Source of the DNA: Microcaldota archaeon
GTDB taxonomy: Archaea > Micrarchaeota > Micrarchaeia > Micrarchaeales > CABMGC01
DNA: 32,867 bases
Assembly (NCBI GenBank): GCA_023256495.1
Contig: JAGDXY010000027.1
Location: forward strand, 6,121-38,987
Direction of reading: 5' to 3'
Shown here one piece after another: positions 2,292 through 28,611 of the stretch. Under the pieces are notes generated by a model that was not told the DNA's origin, made no database searches, and worked only from the letters and a program-made list of their open reading frames with translations. The position numbers and the translations under genes were made by a program. Every line of letters starts with the position of its first letter. Within the stretch, counting starts at the first letter, position 1.

Positions 2292-4184
2292 ATGGCCGAT
2301 GAGTATAACGCTTCTAAAATAATAGTATTGGAAGGACCTGAAGGTATAAGGAAAAGGCCTGCAATGTATATAGGCTCAACTGGAATAAATGGCTTGCTAC
2401 ACTTGCTTTTTGAGGTAATAGATAATGCAGTAGATGAGGCATTAGCTGGATATGCAAACAAGATAGATGTTAAAATAGAAAAAGATGTGGATTCTGTTGA
2501 TATAGCAGAAGTAAGCGATAATGGAAGGGGAATACCTGTAGATACTATACCAAAATACAACAAGAGTGCATTAGAAGTAATAATGACAACATTGCACAAA
2601 GGTGCTAAATTCAATAATGATGTTTATAAAGTATCTGGCGGTTTGCATGGTGTTGGCTTAACAGTAGTCAACGCTTTATCAGAATTTGTAGAAGTTACTG
2701 TAAAAAGAGATGGCAAAATATATAGACAAAGATTTTCTAAAGGTAATGTAATATCTAATCTAGAGATAATAGGAGAAACTAATGAAAGAGGTACTACAGT
2801 AAGATTTAAGCCAGATAAAGAGATATTTCAGGTTGTAAACTTTGATTATGAAGCAATAAAAGAGAGGCTTAGAAATACTGCTTTTCTAAATAAGGGCATA
2901 AGATTAACTCTAAAGTATTATGATAAAGAACCAGAAGAATTTTATTCAGAAAAGGGCATATTAGACTTTTTAGACTTATTGTCAAAAGAAAAAACAAAGA
3001 TAAGTAATGATGTATATGCCTATAAAAAAGTAGATGATATTGTAGTTGAGTTTGCATTTAGATATGTAAACTCTTATGATGAGCTTGTAAAAAGCTTTGT
3101 AAATTCTATAGAAACACCAGAAGGTGGTACTCATTTCATAGGTTTTAGATCAGGATTGGCAAGAGCTATAACTAGCTATATGCAAAAAAACCAGATAAAA
3201 AGTGACGCAAAGATAGAAGGTGATGATACAAGAGAAGGTTTAGTAGGCATAATAAGTATATTAATGCCAAATCCAGAATTTGAAGGACAAACAAAAGAAA
3301 AATTAGGCAATACAAAAATAAAGAATATTGTAGAAAGCATAGTATATGATACTGTCTATAGATATTTAGAAGAACATCCAAACGATGCTAAGATGATAAT
3401 AGAGAAGGTAATCAGTGCAGCAATAGCTAGAGAAAGCGCAAAAAAGGCAAGAGAATTAGCAAGGAAAAAGAGTATTTTTGAAAGCAACATATTACCAGGA
3501 AAACTTGCTGATTGTAGTTTAGATGATCCATCAAAGACAGAGCTATTCATTGTAGAAGGTGAGAGCGCAGGTGGTTCTAGCAAACAAGGTAGAGACAAGA
3601 ATATACAAGCAATATTGCCTCTAAGAGGTAAGATATTAAATGTTGAAAAAGCAAGTCCAAATAAGATATTTAACAATGAGGAGATTAGAGCAATAATAAC
3701 AGCATGTGGCACTGGGGTTGGAGAACAATTTAATATAAATAAGCTAAGATATGGAAAAATAATAATAATGAGCGATGCAGATGTAGATGGAAGTCATATA
3801 AGGGCATTGCTTCTAACATTCTTTTATAGATATATGCCAGAGCTAATTAAACAAGGCCATATCTATGTTGCACAGCCTCCATTATATAAGCTAACAAAAG
3901 GAAAAGAGATTTATTATTTCTATAGCGATGATTCTTTACAAAAGAAGTTAAATGAACTAGGAAACAATGTAACTGTGCAGAGATTCAAAGGTTTAGGTGA
4001 GATGAATCCACAACAACTATGGGAAACTACTATGAATCCAGAGACAAGAATAATAAAGCAGATAAATATAGAAGATGCAAAAAAGGCAGATGAATTATTT
4101 ACAATATTAATGGGTTTAAATGTTGCAAAGAGAAGAGCCTTTTTAGAAGAACATGCACATGAAGTTCAATTCTTAGATGTGTGA
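2292..4184 (+). CDS. gyrB: DNA gyrase subunit B
   Basis: ATPase subunit of the type IIA topoisomerase that introduces negative supercoils, acting as A2B2 with GyrA. The 630-residue protein has, in order, the GHKL ATPase with E41, N45 and D48 in [21 protein letters not shown] (about 76-82) and GGLHGVG (about 116-122). Then come the transducer, the TOPRIM domain with EGESAGG (422-428), [12 protein letters not shown], and DADVDG (495-500) for metal binding. The C-terminal [21 protein letters not shown] block binds GyrA. It lacks the large insert of enterobacterial GyrB. ATG 2292 follows the pcc1 stop by two bases without a clear ribosome site, so translation is probably coupled. Gyrase is common in euryarchaea and DPANN and is thought to derive from bacteria. 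Confidence 0.98.
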
Positions 4185-4192
4185 TGATTAAT

Positions 4193-6583
4193 ATGGCAGA
4201 GTTAATAAAATCTAGATTAGAAGAAGAATTACAAAATAGTTATTTAGAATATGCAATGAGTGTTATAGTAGGTAGAGCTATACCAGACGTTAGAGATGGA
4301 CTTAAGCCAGTACAAAGGAGAATATTATATACAATGTATAATCTAAATAATTTTTCAAACCAGCCAACAAAAAAGAGTGCAAAGATTGTTGGCGATTGCA
4401 TGGGAAAGTATCATCCACATGGCGATGCTGCTATTTATGATTCATTAGTAAGAATGGCCCAACCTTTTGCAACAAATTATCTTTTGGTTGATGGTCAAGG
4501 TAACTTTGGTTCAATAGATGGAGATCCGCCTGCAGCAATGAGGTATACAGAAGTAAGATTAACAAAGATTGCAGAAGAAATGCTAGAAGATTTAGAAAAG
4601 AATGCTGTTGATTTTATACCAAACTTTGATGCAACAGAGGAAGAGCCAGTAGTATTGCCTGCAAAGGTTCCAAATCTATTAATAAATGGTAGCTCTGGTA
4701 TAGCAGTTGGTGTAGCAACTAATATACCACCACATAATTTAGCAGAGGTATGTGATGCAATAATATATAGATTAAACAATAAAAATGCAGAGATAAAAGA
4801 TATAATAAATATAATAAAAGGGCCTGATTTTCCTACAGGAGGTATAGCAATAATGAATAAAGATGCTATAGAGGGCTATATAACAGGAAGAGGACAAATT
4901 ACAATAAGAGCCTATGCAGAGATAAATAATGAAAAGAAGATAATAAGAATTACTGAAATACCATATACAGTAAACAAAGCAATGCTAATAAGAAAAATAG
5001 CGGATTTAGTAAAAGAAAAAAAGATAAGCGGAATAGAGGATATTAGAGATGAAAGTGATAAAGAAGGAATTAGCATAATAATAGAATTAAGAAAAGATAT
5101 AGATCCAAATCAAATGCTAAACTTCCTTTATAAAAACACTCAATTAGAGATTACTTATCCTATAATAAACTTAGCTGTATATAAAAATGGAATAAAGCTA
5201 TTCAATATATTAGAGCTTATCGATGCTTATATAGAGCATAGGAGAGAGGTCATAAGAAGAAGAACAGAATTTGATCTAAAGATAGCAAAAGAAAGGTTAA
5301 ATATAGTAGATGGCCTTCTTATCGCTCTAGAACATATAGATGAGATAATAAAGATAATAAGAAATGGTGAAGATGCAAATTCTGTAAAGAAGGAATTAAT
5401 AGAGAAGTTTTCAATAAATGAAAAACAAGCAGAAGCTATATTGGATATGAAACTAAGCAAATTAACAAAATTAGAGAATAAAAGCCTATTGAATGAAAAA
5501 GACGAATTACTAAATAAGATAAACAATTATGAAACAATATTATCTAAGCAAGAGGAGATAGATAACATAATAAAAAATGAATTAGAAGAACTAAAAAAGA
5601 AATATGGACGTGAAAGGAGAACTAGATTATTGTTTGAAGAGTTTAATGAGATAAATGAAGAGGATACAATAATAAATACAGATGTAGTTATATTAATAAC
5701 TAATAAAGGCTATGTAAAGAGATTACCACTTAGCGAATATAGATTACAAATGAGAGGAGGAAAAGGAATAATATCAATGAAAATAAGCGAAGGAGACTAT
5801 GTAAAGCAAGTAATAACAACAAAAAATAGAAATTACTTATTAGCACTGACAAACAAAGGCAGAGCATATTGGATTAAAGCTTATGAGATACCTGAAATGC
5901 AAAGGTATGCAGAAGGCAAAGTAATAAATAATTTGATTAACTTGCAAAACGATGAAAAAATAGTAAAGATTGTCTCATTGGATGATTTCAATTCTAATAT
6001 CATAATACTAACTAAAAAAGGAATTATAAAGAAAATGCCTTTATTATTATTCTCTAACCCTAGAATTACAGGTATAATAGCGATAAAAATAGATGAAAAT
6101 GATGAAGTAAAAGATGCAATTGTTTACAAAGAAAAAGAGAATATAATAATAACTACAAAGCTTGGTATGTCTTTAAGATTTAAAGAAAGCGAAGTAAAAC
6201 AAATGGGCAGAGTAGCAAAGGGGGTAAGAGGTATAAGGCTTAAAGCTCAGGACGAAGCGCAGAATATAATTGCATGCAATGAAAGCGGTAATATATTAAC
6301 AATAAGTGAAAATGGATTTGGCAAAATTACTAATATAGGTGAATATAGACTACAGCATAGAGGGGGTATAGGTATAAAAACAATGAGAATAACTGAAAAA
6401 ACAGGCAGTGTTGTAAAATCATTATTTATAAAAGATGAAGAAGCATTACTAATAGTAAGCTCATCTGGAATATCAATACAAATACCAATATCATCTATAA
6501 GAGAAACCGGAAGAGTTGCAAGTGGAGTAAAGTTGATTAGATTAGATGAAAATGAAAGAGTAGTAGATGCAAGCCTCATTTAA
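4193..6583 (+). CDS. gyrA: DNA gyrase subunit A
   Basis: Breakage-reunion subunit of gyrase. The protein has [30 protein letters not shown], the winged-helix [19 protein letters not shown] and the catalytic Tyr in [10 protein letters not shown] (residue 118 from this start). Tower and coiled-coil regions follow (about 330-480), then a C-terminal six-bladed beta-pinwheel (about 490-796). The pinwheel keeps a GyrA box, QMRGGKG, at about 519-525, one change from the bacterial QRRGGKG. That favours a supercoiling gyrase over a topo IV-like enzyme. I chose ATG 4193 because GTGAT (4181-4185) lies seven bases before it. GTG 4181 and ATG 4184 (overlapping the gyrB stop) are in the same frame. No long acidic C-terminal tail is present. 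Confidence 0.97.
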
Positions 6584-24355: not shown

Positions 24356-26380
24356 GTGGGCATAGAAACTCTTGTTGATAGAATATTGTATATTTGCAAT
24401 ACAGCAAACGACAAAGAATCTTTGCTAAAATGGATCCAAGAAGAATTGAAAAATGAAACTGGAGTAGAGGAGATAATATTAAAGGATGTGAATGAAAAGA
24501 ATATGTCTAATTCAGATTCATATGTGCTAAATACAAAGAAAATATTGATTGATAATAAGATGAGCGATTACTCGCTTGTTCCTGAATTTATAGAAGCATA
24601 TAAAAAGGGTTATAAAAGTGGGGCAATAGTACCTATAGTAAGTGATGAAGAAAAAATATTAATATATCTATATTCAAGCAAAGAAGAAATTTTTAATGAA
24701 GCGCTAAGAGATGCATTGACAATAATATCAATAATAGTAAGCAAAGACCTCAGTAATAAAGAGCTATATATAAAGCTTAATAGACTAGCAAAATATTTTG
24801 ATATAGCATTTAATAACAATAATATAAAAGCTATTTTAGATGAGAATGGAAAAGCAATAATAAAGAATGATATGGCAAAGAACTTAGATATAAGTAATTT
24901 GTTAGAAAAGAGCAACGTTATAATAAACAATAAGATTTATAATATTGAAAAGAAGAGCATAGACGAAAAATATACATATATAGAAATGAGTGACATATCT
25001 GATAAGATTATAAAAGAAGGAATTGAGAGTTTAATCAATAAAATTGGTTTTTATTTAGTAATAATTAATGATGGAAAAATCTCTTACATAGATAAGAATC
25101 TCATAAATAATATAAATATAGATAAAGATGAAGTAATAGGAAAGAATTTTGATCTATTTTTTAGGATCAATGGAAATAATGAACTTATATTACCACTTGA
25201 TAACAATATATATTCATATGAAAAAGTCTCTTTAAATCAAGGCTTAGAGATTTATATATTATATAAGGATCTAAAAAAAGACTTAGATGCATTGAATAAT
25301 ACATTAATTGAAATAATAAAAAACAGCAATGATATAATAATAAAAACAAACAAAGATGGTTTTATAAAAGAGGTAAATGAATCATTTATAAAAGAAATAT
25401 CAAATGATATACCAATTTCTTCAAATATAATAAGTATATTAAACCCACAAGAAGATGTAAATAAGTTATTCAATTCAAATAATGAAGTTAATTTAAAGAT
25501 CTTTTCGAAAGTAAAGAATTCAGATATTAATGTAACATGTAGAAAAATAACACTCGGAGATGATATATTAATAATATGCAAAAACAATTACTATAAAGAT
25601 GCTGTAGAATTATTAAATAAAGAGATTATAAAAAAAGAAAGAGAAGTTGAAAGATTCAAGAACGAAAGCGACTTAAAAACACAATTTATTTATAATATAT
25701 CTCATGACCTAAAAACACCTCTTACTAATATAAAAGGCTTTTCTACGTTGCTTTTAAATGAGGAATTTGGAAATTTAAATGAAGAACAAAAGAGCTATAT
25801 AAAGATAATAATAGATGAATCAGAGAGACTTATGCAGTTGATAACACAAATACTAGATGTTGCAAAACTTTCATCTGGAAAAATAAAACTTGATTTACAA
25901 AAAGTTAATTTCCAAGACATAAAGAATAATCCAAGCATAAAGGCATTAGAAGAGATGGCAACTAAAAAGGGCTTATTCTTTGTTTTTAATATAGATTATG
26001 ATGTACCCGAGATTATAGCTGATCCAAATAGACTCATCCAAATATTTGTTAACCTGATAAGCAATGCAATTAAATTCACAGATAAAGGAGGTATAACAAT
26101 ACATATATCAAAGAAAAATAAAAATGTAAAGGTAGAGGTAATAGATACAGGTATAGGTATAAGCAAGGAAGATAAAGCAAAATTGTTTAAGAGGTTCTAT
26201 CAAGTTAATAAGACAAGAAATGAAAAGACAGGTACTGGATTAGGTTTATCTATAGTAAAAGGTTTGGTAAATCTTCATGGAGGTAGAATAGGTGTAAACT
26301 CTGAACCTGGAAAAGGAAGTAATTTTTATTTTATAATACCAATAAATGGCCCTAAATCAAAGAAAAAAGTCAAGGAATGA
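24356..26380 (+). CDS. Soluble sensor histidine kinase (GAF-like, PAS-like, HisKA, HATPase)
   Basis: A 674-residue kinase without signal peptide or membrane segment, so probably cytoplasmic. Residues 1-130 look GAF-like (GYKSGAIVPI and IYLYSSKEEIFNEALRDALT). Segments at about 228-300 and 315-405 look PAS-like (FYLVIINDGKISYIDKNLI and NDIIIKTNKDGFIKEVN). A coiled coil (about 415-440) leads to the H-box FIYNISHDLKTPLTN with H450. The ATPase domain has N566 and N570 (VNLISNAIKF), DTGIGI (597-602), the F-box FKRFYQ and GTGLGL (626-631). The start is GTG 24356. Ligands are unknown. The likely output is the response regulator at 27418, separated only by a convergent minus-strand gene. The last 11 bases overlap that gene. 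Confidence 0.95.
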   Translation: MGIETLVDRILYICNTANDKESLLKWIQEELKNETGVEEIILKDVNEKNMSNSDSYVLNTKKILIDNKMSDYSLVPEFIEAYKKGYKSGAIVPIVSDEEKILIYLYSSKEEIFNEALRDALTIISIIVSKDLSNKELYIKLNRLAKYFDIAFNNNNIKAILDENGKAIIKNDMAKNLDISNLLEKSNVIINNKIYNIEKKSIDEKYTYIEMSDISDKIIKEGIESLINKIGFYLVIINDGKISYIDKNLINNINIDKDEVIGKNFDLFFRINGNNELILPLDNNIYSYEKVSLNQGLEIYILYKDLKKDLDALNNTLIEIIKNSNDIIIKTNKDGFIKEVNESFIKEISNDIPISSNIISILNPQEDVNKLFNSNNEVNLKIFSKVKNSDINVTCRKITLGDDILIICKNNYYKDAVELLNKEIIKKEREVERFKNESDLKTQFIYNISHDLKTPLTNIKGFSTLLLNEEFGNLNEEQKSYIKIIIDESERLMQLITQILDVAKLSSGKIKLDLQKVNFQDIKNNPSIKALEEMATKKGLFFVFNIDYDVPEIIADPNRLIQIFVNLISNAIKFTDKGGITIHISKKNKNVKVEVIDTGIGISKEDKAKLFKRFYQVNKTRNEKTGTGLGLSIVKGLVNLHGGRIGVNSEPGKGSNFYFIIPINGPKSKKKVKE

Positions 26381-27284
26381 ATGCGCCACAAGCACCAATC
26401 TTTACTTCTTGTTCATAAGAATTATATAAAGTAGTGATATTTTGTCCATAAAAAGGACCTGTAAAGATTTCATTATTAATAGAGCTTTGGTTCACATTTA
26501 TATAGACTAATATGCTATTTTCTTTTGTGCCATTTCTAAATATTGCATAGTAATCAAACATAATGTTGCCGTTCTTTCCTATTGTGTAGTTATATGCTAT
26601 CTTTATTGGTGTAGCATTAGTTATATTATAATAAGAATTAGGTCCTGTAGGTTGCTTGTTGAATTGGGCAAAGAATGTTTTGTTATATAATGATTCTGTG
26701 CAATTATAATATGCATTTTGATATAAGAAATTCAATTCATTAACTAGTTTTGGTATGTTTGTTGAATTCAATATAGGTAATGCCTTGCTTAATATAACAT
26801 TTGTTTGAGATATCGTAGTAGATATAGATGTAGCTATAGACGTTGTTGAAGTACTAATAGTGGTTGTGTTCTTAGTAGTTGTGATATTTTGCTTTGGTTT
26901 TATTGTGGTTGTTGTATTTAATGTTTTTGTTGCAAACATTTTCTGTGTAGAATTTGTAGTTTCTAATAGTTCTAACTTAATTGGCGAGAGCATTATTTTA
27001 TAAGAGATATTGTTTATACTTACTATAGAACCATTAGTAATGTTTTCTATAATAACATTGTTTAAAGGAACGGGCCATTTCTCTATTTCTAAAGTAGCGT
27101 GTGTTCCATTAAATGATAAATAGCTCAATACATAACCATCTATAAATCTGCTGCCCCCTAGGGGTATATAATTATTGTTTTTTAAAGAAAAATACAAAAT
27201 TGCTACGACTAGAACTAGAAGTAATAATATCAATATTGCTATAGGCAATCTCTTTTTCTTTTTATGGATTTCTTTTTCATTCAT
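26370..27284 (-). CDS. Membrane-anchored extracytoplasmic protein with Ser/Thr stalk
   Basis: A 304-residue protein of unknown function. A basic cytoplasmic tip (MNEKEIHKKKKRLP) and one membrane segment (about 15-33) are followed by a small beta-rich domain (35-115). A low-complexity stalk of Thr, Ser, Ile and Asn covers about 122-160. The C-terminal domain of about 140 residues is rich in Tyr and Asn, with two Cys (YNCTE and IGACGAFIP) that could form a disulfide. The orientation rule places the large part outside. Many N-x-S/T sites suggest glycosylation. It sits between a histidine kinase and a response regulator but on the opposite strand, and its 3' end overlaps the kinase by 11 bases. 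It may be a surface sensor or binding protein; that is only inference. Confidence 0.78.
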   Translation of the reverse strand: MNEKEIHKKKKRLPIAILILLLLVLVVAILYFSLKNNNYIPLGGSRFIDGYVLSYLSFNGTHATLEIEKWPVPLNNVIIENITNGSIVSINNISYKIMLSPIKLELLETTNSTQKMFATKTLNTTTTIKPKQNITTTKNTTTISTSTTSIATSISTTISQTNVILSKALPILNSTNIPKLVNELNFLYQNAYYNCTESLYNKTFFAQFNKQPTGPNSYYNITNATPIKIAYNYTIGKNGNIMFDYYAIFRNGTKENSILVYINVNQSSINNEIFTGPFYGQNITTLYNSYEQEVKIGACGAFIP

Positions 27285-27417
27285 CTATGAAAGTTAAATA
27301 TTGAAACTTAAATATTTTTCGTTAGATCATAGATAATTAAGAACTAAGAAGAGAATACTAGATAATTTAAGAAATCTTAAAAAATTTAAATGAGCTAAGT
27401 AAATTTGGTGTTCTTGC

Positions 27418-28611
27418 ATGCAAACATTAGAAGATGTCGAATCACAAATTCTTACTATTTTATCTGATAAGCAGCAAATAGATTATAGTGACTTAGAGGC
27501 TTATGCAAAAGAGAATAATATAGATAAAGGGCTATTAGATAAGGCATTATCTGAGCTAGAAAAGGCAGAGGTAATTGCATCTAGAGATAGTGGGGGTATA
27601 AAAGTATTTTATATATTAGAAGAAGAGAGCTCAATAAAAAGGGTTTTTATTGTAGAGGATGATAAGAACATAAATAAGCTAATGGCTCTAACATTAGGAA
27701 AAAACTATGATATTACTCAAATATATAATGGTAGAGAAGCACTAGATGCAATTATTAGAGAAAAACCAGATCTAGTAATACTAGATCTTATGCTACCTGA
27801 AATAGATGGCTTAGAGATATGCCAAAAAATAAAGAGTAATCCTGCTACACAAGATATTATAGTAATAATAGTAAGCGCTATGGATCCAACATCAAATAGA
27901 TTCAAAGGAATAAAGTATGGTGCTGATTATTATATAAAAAAGCCATTTGATCCATTAGAATTAAGAAATCTAGTTACTATATTTCTAAAGAAAAAAGGCA
28001 AAAAGTTTGATCCTTTAATAAATTTGCCAAATGAATCAAAAATATCACAAGCTGTAGAAGAAGTACTGAAAAGCAATTATGAGATAGGTAGAATAAAAAT
28101 AGAGGGCTTAGCAGAATTTGCACAAAAGTTTGGAATTGATGAAGGCTTAACAATACTAAGATTAGTATCCCAACTTTTACAAGATGCAGTAAAAGAGGAA
28201 AAAGAGGCAAAGGTATTTCTGGGCTTATTAGATAGTGGTGATTTTGTCATTGCAGGAGATAAAAAAGGTGTAGAAGAGACAATAAGCAAATTAGATAAGG
28301 AATTCAATGCTGTTTTGCCATTTATATATCAAGATGCTGGTGACTTCTCTTCTTTTGGAATAGAACCTATTGGATATATAAGCAAAGTAAAATTAGGTAT
28401 AAAGTATATAAGTATAGGAAAAAACCAAATTGCAGAAAAGAAAGAAGAAATTATAAAGGAGAGAAAATTAAAAGAGAATCTCTCTTATTCAATAGGCTCC
28501 TATACCTATGAGGAGCTAAGAAAATTGTTAGGAAGTGAAGATTTAGATATAAGTATAACAAGAGGGCCTGGAGGAGTAAGATTATCTGTTGGCAAAAACA
28601 AAAAGGAGTAA
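27418..28611 (+). CDS. Response regulator: winged helix, receiver and degenerate GGDEF-like domain
   Basis: A 397-residue three-part regulator. Residues 1-66 resemble a small winged-helix domain (LTILSDKQQIDYSDLEAYAK, ALSELEKAEVIASRD). Residues 74-193 are a complete receiver: acidic pair D81-D82 after FIVE, phospho-acceptor D123 in LVILDLMLPEIDG, S153 in VSA and K175 in IKKPFDP. Residues from about 197 start DPLINLPNESKISQAVEEVL, parallel to the DPLTGLPNR opening of GGDEF diguanylate cyclases. The active-site GGDEF position reads LLDSGDFVIAG (270-280), so two Gly and the catalytic acids are not preserved and c-di-GMP synthesis is unlikely. The C-terminal 60 residues are charged and unassigned. 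TATA-like TTTAAA (27385-27390) lies upstream. The kinase at 24356 is the probable partner. Confidence 0.88.
   Translation: MQTLEDVESQILTILSDKQQIDYSDLEAYAKENNIDKGLLDKALSELEKAEVIASRDSGGIKVFYILEEESSIKRVFIVEDDKNINKLMALTLGKNYDITQIYNGREALDAIIREKPDLVILDLMLPEIDGLEICQKIKSNPATQDIIVIIVSAMDPTSNRFKGIKYGADYYIKKPFDPLELRNLVTIFLKKKGKKFDPLINLPNESKISQAVEEVLKSNYEIGRIKIEGLAEFAQKFGIDEGLTILRLVSQLLQDAVKEEKEAKVFLGLLDSGDFVIAGDKKGVEETISKLDKEFNAVLPFIYQDAGDFSSFGIEPIGYISKVKLGIKYISIGKNQIAEKKEEIIKERKLKENLSYSIGSYTYEELRKLLGSEDLDISITRGPGGVRLSVGKNKKE

Follow-up and report, generated by a model that had tools for sequence, protein, structure and literature searches.

The protein examined here is a response regulator in which a winged helix, a receiver domain and a GGDEF-fold domain that has lost its active site are followed by a conserved tail; this identification, taken apart from any mechanism, is regarded as nearly certain. 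Its gene lies in the window, the whole 32,867-nucleotide stretch of DNA from a Micrarchaeota archaeon that was analysed (Table 1). The most likely predicted function is that of a phosphorylation-switched transcription factor in which the dead GGDEF domain serves for dimerisation or partner binding. We put the probability of the whole mechanism, with its predicted steps of phosphotransfer, dimer or partner switching, DNA binding by the winged helix and a divergent promoter as target, at roughly 60%.

Table 1. Features of the regulator locus, in coordinates of the window.
Feature	Position	Strand	Basis or detail
Response regulator gene	27418..28611	+	397 aa, ATG to TAA; wHTH - REC - degenerate GGDEF - alpha-beta-beta tail
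N-terminal winged helix, residues 4-67	27427..27618	+	AF2 secondary structure; weak HTH family matches
Receiver domain, residues 74-191	27637..27990	+	PF00072 match; catalytic residues invariant
Codon of predicted phospho-acceptor Asp123	27784..27786	+	Asp123 invariant, 57 sequences
Linker/DxLT segment, residues 191-205	27988..28032	+	Most constrained segment, dN/dS 0.007
Degenerate GGDEF domain, residues 198-352	28009..28473	+	Orthologue Pfam matches, hhalign, PDB profile search, model, Foldseek
Lys227, replaces first metal-binding Asp of GGDEF domains	28096..28098	+	hhalign and family alignment
DSGDF, replaces GG(D/E)EF signature	28231..28245	+	hhalign and family alignment
C-terminal alpha-beta-beta tail, residues 358-392, conserved extra element	28489..28593	+	Model and family alignment
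Soluble histidine kinase, 674 aa, predicted cognate kinase	24356..26380	+	HisKA 25676-25879, HATPase_c 26021-26344
304-aa single-pass membrane protein, predicted outer domain, divergent from regulator	26370..27284	-	Conserved position
Divergent intergenic region between membrane-protein and regulator genes, candidate operator region	27285..27417		Locus comparison

Domain layout of the response regulator

An earlier note, made from the sequence alone, had described a winged helix, a receiver and a degenerate GGDEF domain in this protein, and all three were borne out by Pfam searches, profile comparisons and structure prediction. The full-length AF2 model, for which 49 orthologues were used as input, had a mean pLDDT of 86.7 and a pTM of 0.69, and a separate model of residues 195-397 only (pLDDT 87.5, pTM 0.83) agreed with it. 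The receiver was the only strong Pfam domain of the window protein (PF00072, residues 76-186, E = 1.4e-24). Its catalytic residues E80, D81, D82, D123, S153 and K175 were invariant in 57 of 57 family members, with the acidic pair, the phospho-accepting Asp, the Ser/Thr and the Lys of a response regulator all present.

The AF2 model places the winged-helix elements at H4-18, E20-22, H23-32, H37-49, E53-58 and E61-66 with high pLDDT. The window copy matched Pfam HTH families weakly, and a class-level homologue (L134) exceeded the HTH_IclR cut-off; the modelled fold and this match place the protein among the wHTH regulators. As modelled, the winged helix would be suited to DNA binding, which is itself predicted from the fold. 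Domains of the wHTH type are also able to bind proteins in place of DNA.

Elsewhere in the window, adjacent genes resembling gyrB and gyrA (2292-6583) were observed, a gyrase of bacterial type in an archaeal genome. A short ORF (732-1430) with a glycosyltransferase-like N-terminus and membrane segments at its end could be a gene that has been truncated or fused.

The C-terminal unit is a GGDEF-fold domain

On its own, the window copy did not reach the Pfam GGDEF model (PF00990). PF00990 matches were obtained for 32 of the 49 orthologues, the best at 5.3e-5, and a few exceeded the gathering cut-off in the genome scan. Comparison by hhalign of the C-terminal profile of the family with 16 intact archaeal GGDEF domains resulted in an E-value of 6.7e-6, and the alignment paired FDPLINLPN with TDSLTGLGN and LDSGDFVIAG with RTGGDEFVVIL. 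The strings DPLINLPNESKI and LDSGDFVIAG, on which the earlier note had based its assignment, are both present in the window protein. When the family profile was searched against PDB with hmmsearch, GGDEF chains ranked first (best E 0.0035).

In terms of structure, residues 206-351 of the model form an alpha-beta-alpha-alpha-beta-beta-alpha-beta-alpha unit, which is the GGDEF topology, and residues 364-391 form the additional alpha-beta-beta tail. Foldseek searches with the full-length model gave WspR, PleD and DgcR, all of them REC-GGDEF proteins, as the top solved structures, while matches 1-31 of the isolated domain were GGDEF-containing proteins, followed by Thg1 and adenylate-cyclase palms. 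The TM score of the isolated domain reached only about 0.5, which indicates that the C-terminal half and the tail are divergent. FimX and DosP appeared as weak matches in this search and the PDB profile search.

A CRISPR Cas10-type palm, the other candidate fold, was not supported by Foldseek, since GGDEF domains ranked first and Cas10 was absent from the top 50 matches of the isolated domain; the structure comparison proposed in the earlier note thus gave a GGDEF palm and not one of the Cas10 type. Palm fold and profile similarity together make the C-terminal unit a member of the GGDEF domains by homology. The degenerate GGDEF identity therefore stands on several lines of evidence, namely the orthologue PF00990 matches, hhalign, the PDB profile search and Foldseek.

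The active site is lost and the domain remains constrained

Positions of the active site were anchored via the hhalign alignment, with N335 and D344 taken by us to be the guanine-contacting residues in PleD numbering. Lys or Arg replaces the first metal-binding Asp in most of 57 sequences, and an acidic residue is found there in one. The equivalents of N335 and D344 are Ala/Val/Ile and Ile/Val/Met/Leu, respectively, in members from the order of the source genome, and neither Asn nor Asp in members found only at the level of the class. Members of the order mostly carry N[SG]DDF at the signature and class-level members G-x-GEF; the window copy, with DSGDF, is more degraded than its order-level relatives. 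No RxxD inhibitory site, which occurs in many but not all diguanylate cyclases, is conserved before the signature in the family alignment, where the equivalent column is mostly gap.

The protein accordingly lacks the signature, the metal-binding Asp and the guanine-binding Asn and Asp that define a diguanylate cyclase. An active cyclase, or catalytic acids conserved after a corrected alignment, was rejected, as neither the first metal Asp nor either of the guanine ligands is retained, and the same losses support the suggestion of the earlier note that c-di-GMP is not synthesised. Some other residual activity, such as palm-type nucleotidyl transfer, might be sought in the remaining acids, because Asp or Glu occurs at position 274 in 40 and at position 275 in 39 of the 49 members from the order. 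However, a Gly occupies position 274 in the window copy and in each of the 8 class-level members, and with the first metal Asp replaced by a basic residue in most members we consider such activity very improbable.

Over 16 close pairs of sequences, dN/dS was 0.056 for the pseudo-GGDEF domain, 0.045 for the receiver and 0.007 for linker residues 191-205, ratios that are approximate because dS was high in these pairs. Judged by these sequence comparisons, the dead GGDEF domain evolves under purifying selection. In helix alpha2, R248, S251, Q252 and Q255 form an invariant polar patch in the family alignment, and this patch could be a ligand or partner site instead of a dimer interface.

An apparently single two-component system and absent c-di-GMP partners

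HisKA was found exactly once in 58 of 59 genomes of the order. PF00072 gave 58 matches in 56 of the 59 genomes, and 57 of these matches belong to the regulator family, with two copies in one genome; the sole match outside the family fell below the cut-off. On the basis of the PF00072 and PF00512 searches of these 59 genomes, the kinase and the regulator appear to form the one two-component system present in the order, and in the source archaeon itself no response regulator besides this one was detected. Of 57 regulator copies, 45 have the kinase no more than 5 kb upstream on the same strand, and for nearly all others the two genes are on separate contigs. The same upstream placement was seen in 59 of the 76 loci having enough upstream DNA. 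Relatives at the class level also have the kinase close by, encoded on the other strand. The N-terminal sensor part of the window kinase had weak GAF/PAS matches, and no transmembrane segment was predicted in the kinase. The kinase core (residues 436-674) was about 50-70% conserved in the order, and the sensor half was mostly not recognisable by tblastn.

The partners of a c-di-GMP network were absent. EAL, HD-GYP and PilZ were each found in 0 of 59 order genomes in searches that detected their positive controls, so that the genome search suggested in the earlier note yielded neither phosphodiesterases nor PilZ receptors. No intact GGDEF was found in the window's own genome, which is about 88% complete.

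These results bear on the proposal that the pseudo-GGDEF domain is a receptor for a nucleotide or cyclic dinucleotide, through which phosphorylation would be integrated with a second messenger from intact Micrarchaeota GGDEFs. Such enzymes exist in many Micrarchaeota, degenerate GGDEF domains can serve as receptors (PopA and PelD), and the domain is conserved and carries the polar patch in helix alpha2. Against this, the metal and guanine ligands and the RxxD site are missing, PilZ, EAL and HD-GYP are absent, and the window's genome keeps the regulator without an intact GGDEF. We judge the receptor proposal distinctly improbable. The earlier note had offered nucleotide sensing beside dimer switching as a role for the domain; sensing at the active site is not supported, given the family-wide loss of ligands, and the option is weakened further because no intact GGDEF accompanies the regulator in its own genome. 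Nucleotides might conceivably be bound elsewhere, for example at the R248/S251/Q252/Q255 patch.

Neighbouring membrane protein and divergent region

The 304-aa protein encoded beside the regulator carries a single membrane helix at its N-terminus and an outer part rich in Thr and Asn, and a Pfam search with it gave nothing significant. In most loci, a relative of it is encoded at this position and in divergent orientation to the regulator gene, usually with 100-150 bp between the two, and the order of kinase, membrane protein and regulator genes is conserved across two families. A search of 57 divergent regions yielded no operator motif, and the only elements it detected were TATA-like ones and, beside the start codon, a GGYGAYC that resembles a ribosome-binding site. 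Most orthologues (L031-L110) have this GGYGAYC-like motif (GGCGATC or GGTGACC) immediately ahead of the start codon, and the window copy lacks it; by its sequence, it may be likened to an extended ribosome-binding site.

Divergent gene arrangements are often seen at autoregulated promoters, and the conservation of such an arrangement, together with the canonical wHTH fold, argues against a regulator that acts mainly via protein-protein interaction, with the winged helix and the pseudo-GGDEF domain as adaptors that do not bind DNA. This alternative would agree with the lack of an operator motif in the divergent regions and with the prevalence of protein interaction among archaeal regulators argued by Galperin et al. 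2018 (PMC5847659), and we hold it to be unlikely, though of some weight.

Distribution and descent

The domain profile matched 115 of 246 sampled genomes of the class. The order, with two families, contributed 101 of its 109 genomes and the rest of the class 14 of 137; the matching frames were almost always about 400 aa long. The genomes are mostly metagenome-assembled, and these presence counts are thus lower bounds. Carriers include single-contig genomes and the complete genome of Ca. Micrarchaeum sp. A_DKE (NZ_CP060530.1). Amino-acid identity to the window protein was mostly 52-61% in the family, 47-56% in the order and 41-46% in the class, and this drop with taxonomic distance is expected under vertical descent. 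EF-2 and ribosomal proteins are among the archaeal neighbours encoded in the window.

Galperin et al. 2018 (PMC5847659) described a regulator with a receiver and an inactivated GGDEF domain from two genomes of Ca. Micrarchaeum acidiphilum. They could not exclude contamination for these first examples; for the only Micrarchaeota genome complete at that time, they noted a single two-component system, with an HTH-containing regulator. In our literature search, this was the only paper found naming both 'Micrarchaeota' and 'GGDEF'. Bacterial contamination, the doubt raised there, is refuted by the presence of the gene across the lineage, including single-contig genomes and the complete A_DKE genome, by the pattern of identities and by the archaeal neighbours, and we regard contamination or recent transfer as scarcely credible. 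The published question is thereby answered and can be considered settled: the protein is genuinely archaeal. An ancient transfer of the regulator from bacteria is possible.

The statement of the earlier note that GGDEF domains are rare in archaea holds in general and fails in this lineage, where 100 of 196 class genomes have PF00990 matches. The regulator family itself accounts for several dozen of these matches, and many of the remainder are intact enzymes. Intact GGDEF domains, stand-alone or sensor-linked and with catalytic residues present, were observed in many Micrarchaeota genomes (L112-L130, e.g. L116, L117 and L128), and it is possible that they represent an unexplored archaeal synthesis of c-di-GMP or another nucleotide.

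Proposed mechanism

In the mechanism that we favour, the adjoining cytoplasmic histidine kinase would phosphorylate the receiver at Asp123, and phosphorylation would change the oligomeric state of the regulator. The dead GGDEF domain and the near-invariant linker would act as a dimerisation or partner-docking module that relays phosphorylation, and the changed dimer or partner state would control DNA binding by the winged helix. The first candidate target is the divergent promoter common to the regulator and the outward-facing membrane protein. The dimer switching suggested in the earlier note is plausible as a prediction for this regulator.

The mechanism is supported by the complete receiver site and the single HisKA domain, by the linked kinase, by the wHTH and REC-GGDEF folds, by a domain that is dead yet constrained and by the missing EAL, HD-GYP and PilZ. 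It is weakened because no operator motif was found, wHTH domains may bind proteins, the TM score of the domain alone is modest, and the invariant polar patch could be where a ligand or partner binds.

Signalling proteins are very scarce in nano-sized archaea that depend on a host, and here one regulator and one kinase are seemingly the whole two-component repertoire of an order. The global response of the order could thus be tested with two proteins, and the lineage has a co-culture (A_DKE). The regulator is also a clear example from nature of a GGDEF domain that has lost catalysis and is still kept under purifying selection. As a broader and tentative view, which we think possible rather than probable, a diguanylate-cyclase fold was repurposed as the regulatory or dimerisation core of an archaeal transcription factor in the order's only two-component system, coupled to a conserved outward-facing membrane protein and possibly forming the principal switch for contact with the host or for sensing of the environment.

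Comparison with known systems

WspR, PleD and DgcR, the top structural matches, likewise have a receiver followed by a GGDEF domain. In contrast to the window regulator, they are active bacterial enzymes with GG(D/E)EF, metal and guanine ligands and an I-site, and they have no N-terminal wHTH. PopA, PelD, FimX, CsrD and DosP use a GGDEF fold without diguanylate cyclase activity as a receptor or interaction domain. These proteins work inside bacterial c-di-GMP networks, and PopA and PelD keep the I-site, unlike the family of the window regulator.

Among archaeal proteins, FilR1 and LtrR likewise combine an N-terminal (w)HTH and a receiver in one protein; as described by Galperin et al. 2018 (PMC5847659), they differ in having no GGDEF domain and, in FilR1, in having DUF1724 between the two domains. 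FilR1 and LtrR are known from methanogens, and the LtrR type also from haloarchaea (PMC5847659). The closest counterpart in that paper is the WspR-like regulator of Ca. Micrarchaeum acidiphilum, which comes from the same lineage, has a receiver and an inactivated GGDEF domain, and very probably belongs to the family of the window regulator. Relative to the passage on that regulator (PMC5847659), what is added here is the winged helix and C-terminal tail alongside the GGDEF domain, the family-wide residue changes, the locus of kinase, membrane protein and regulator, and the distribution of the family.
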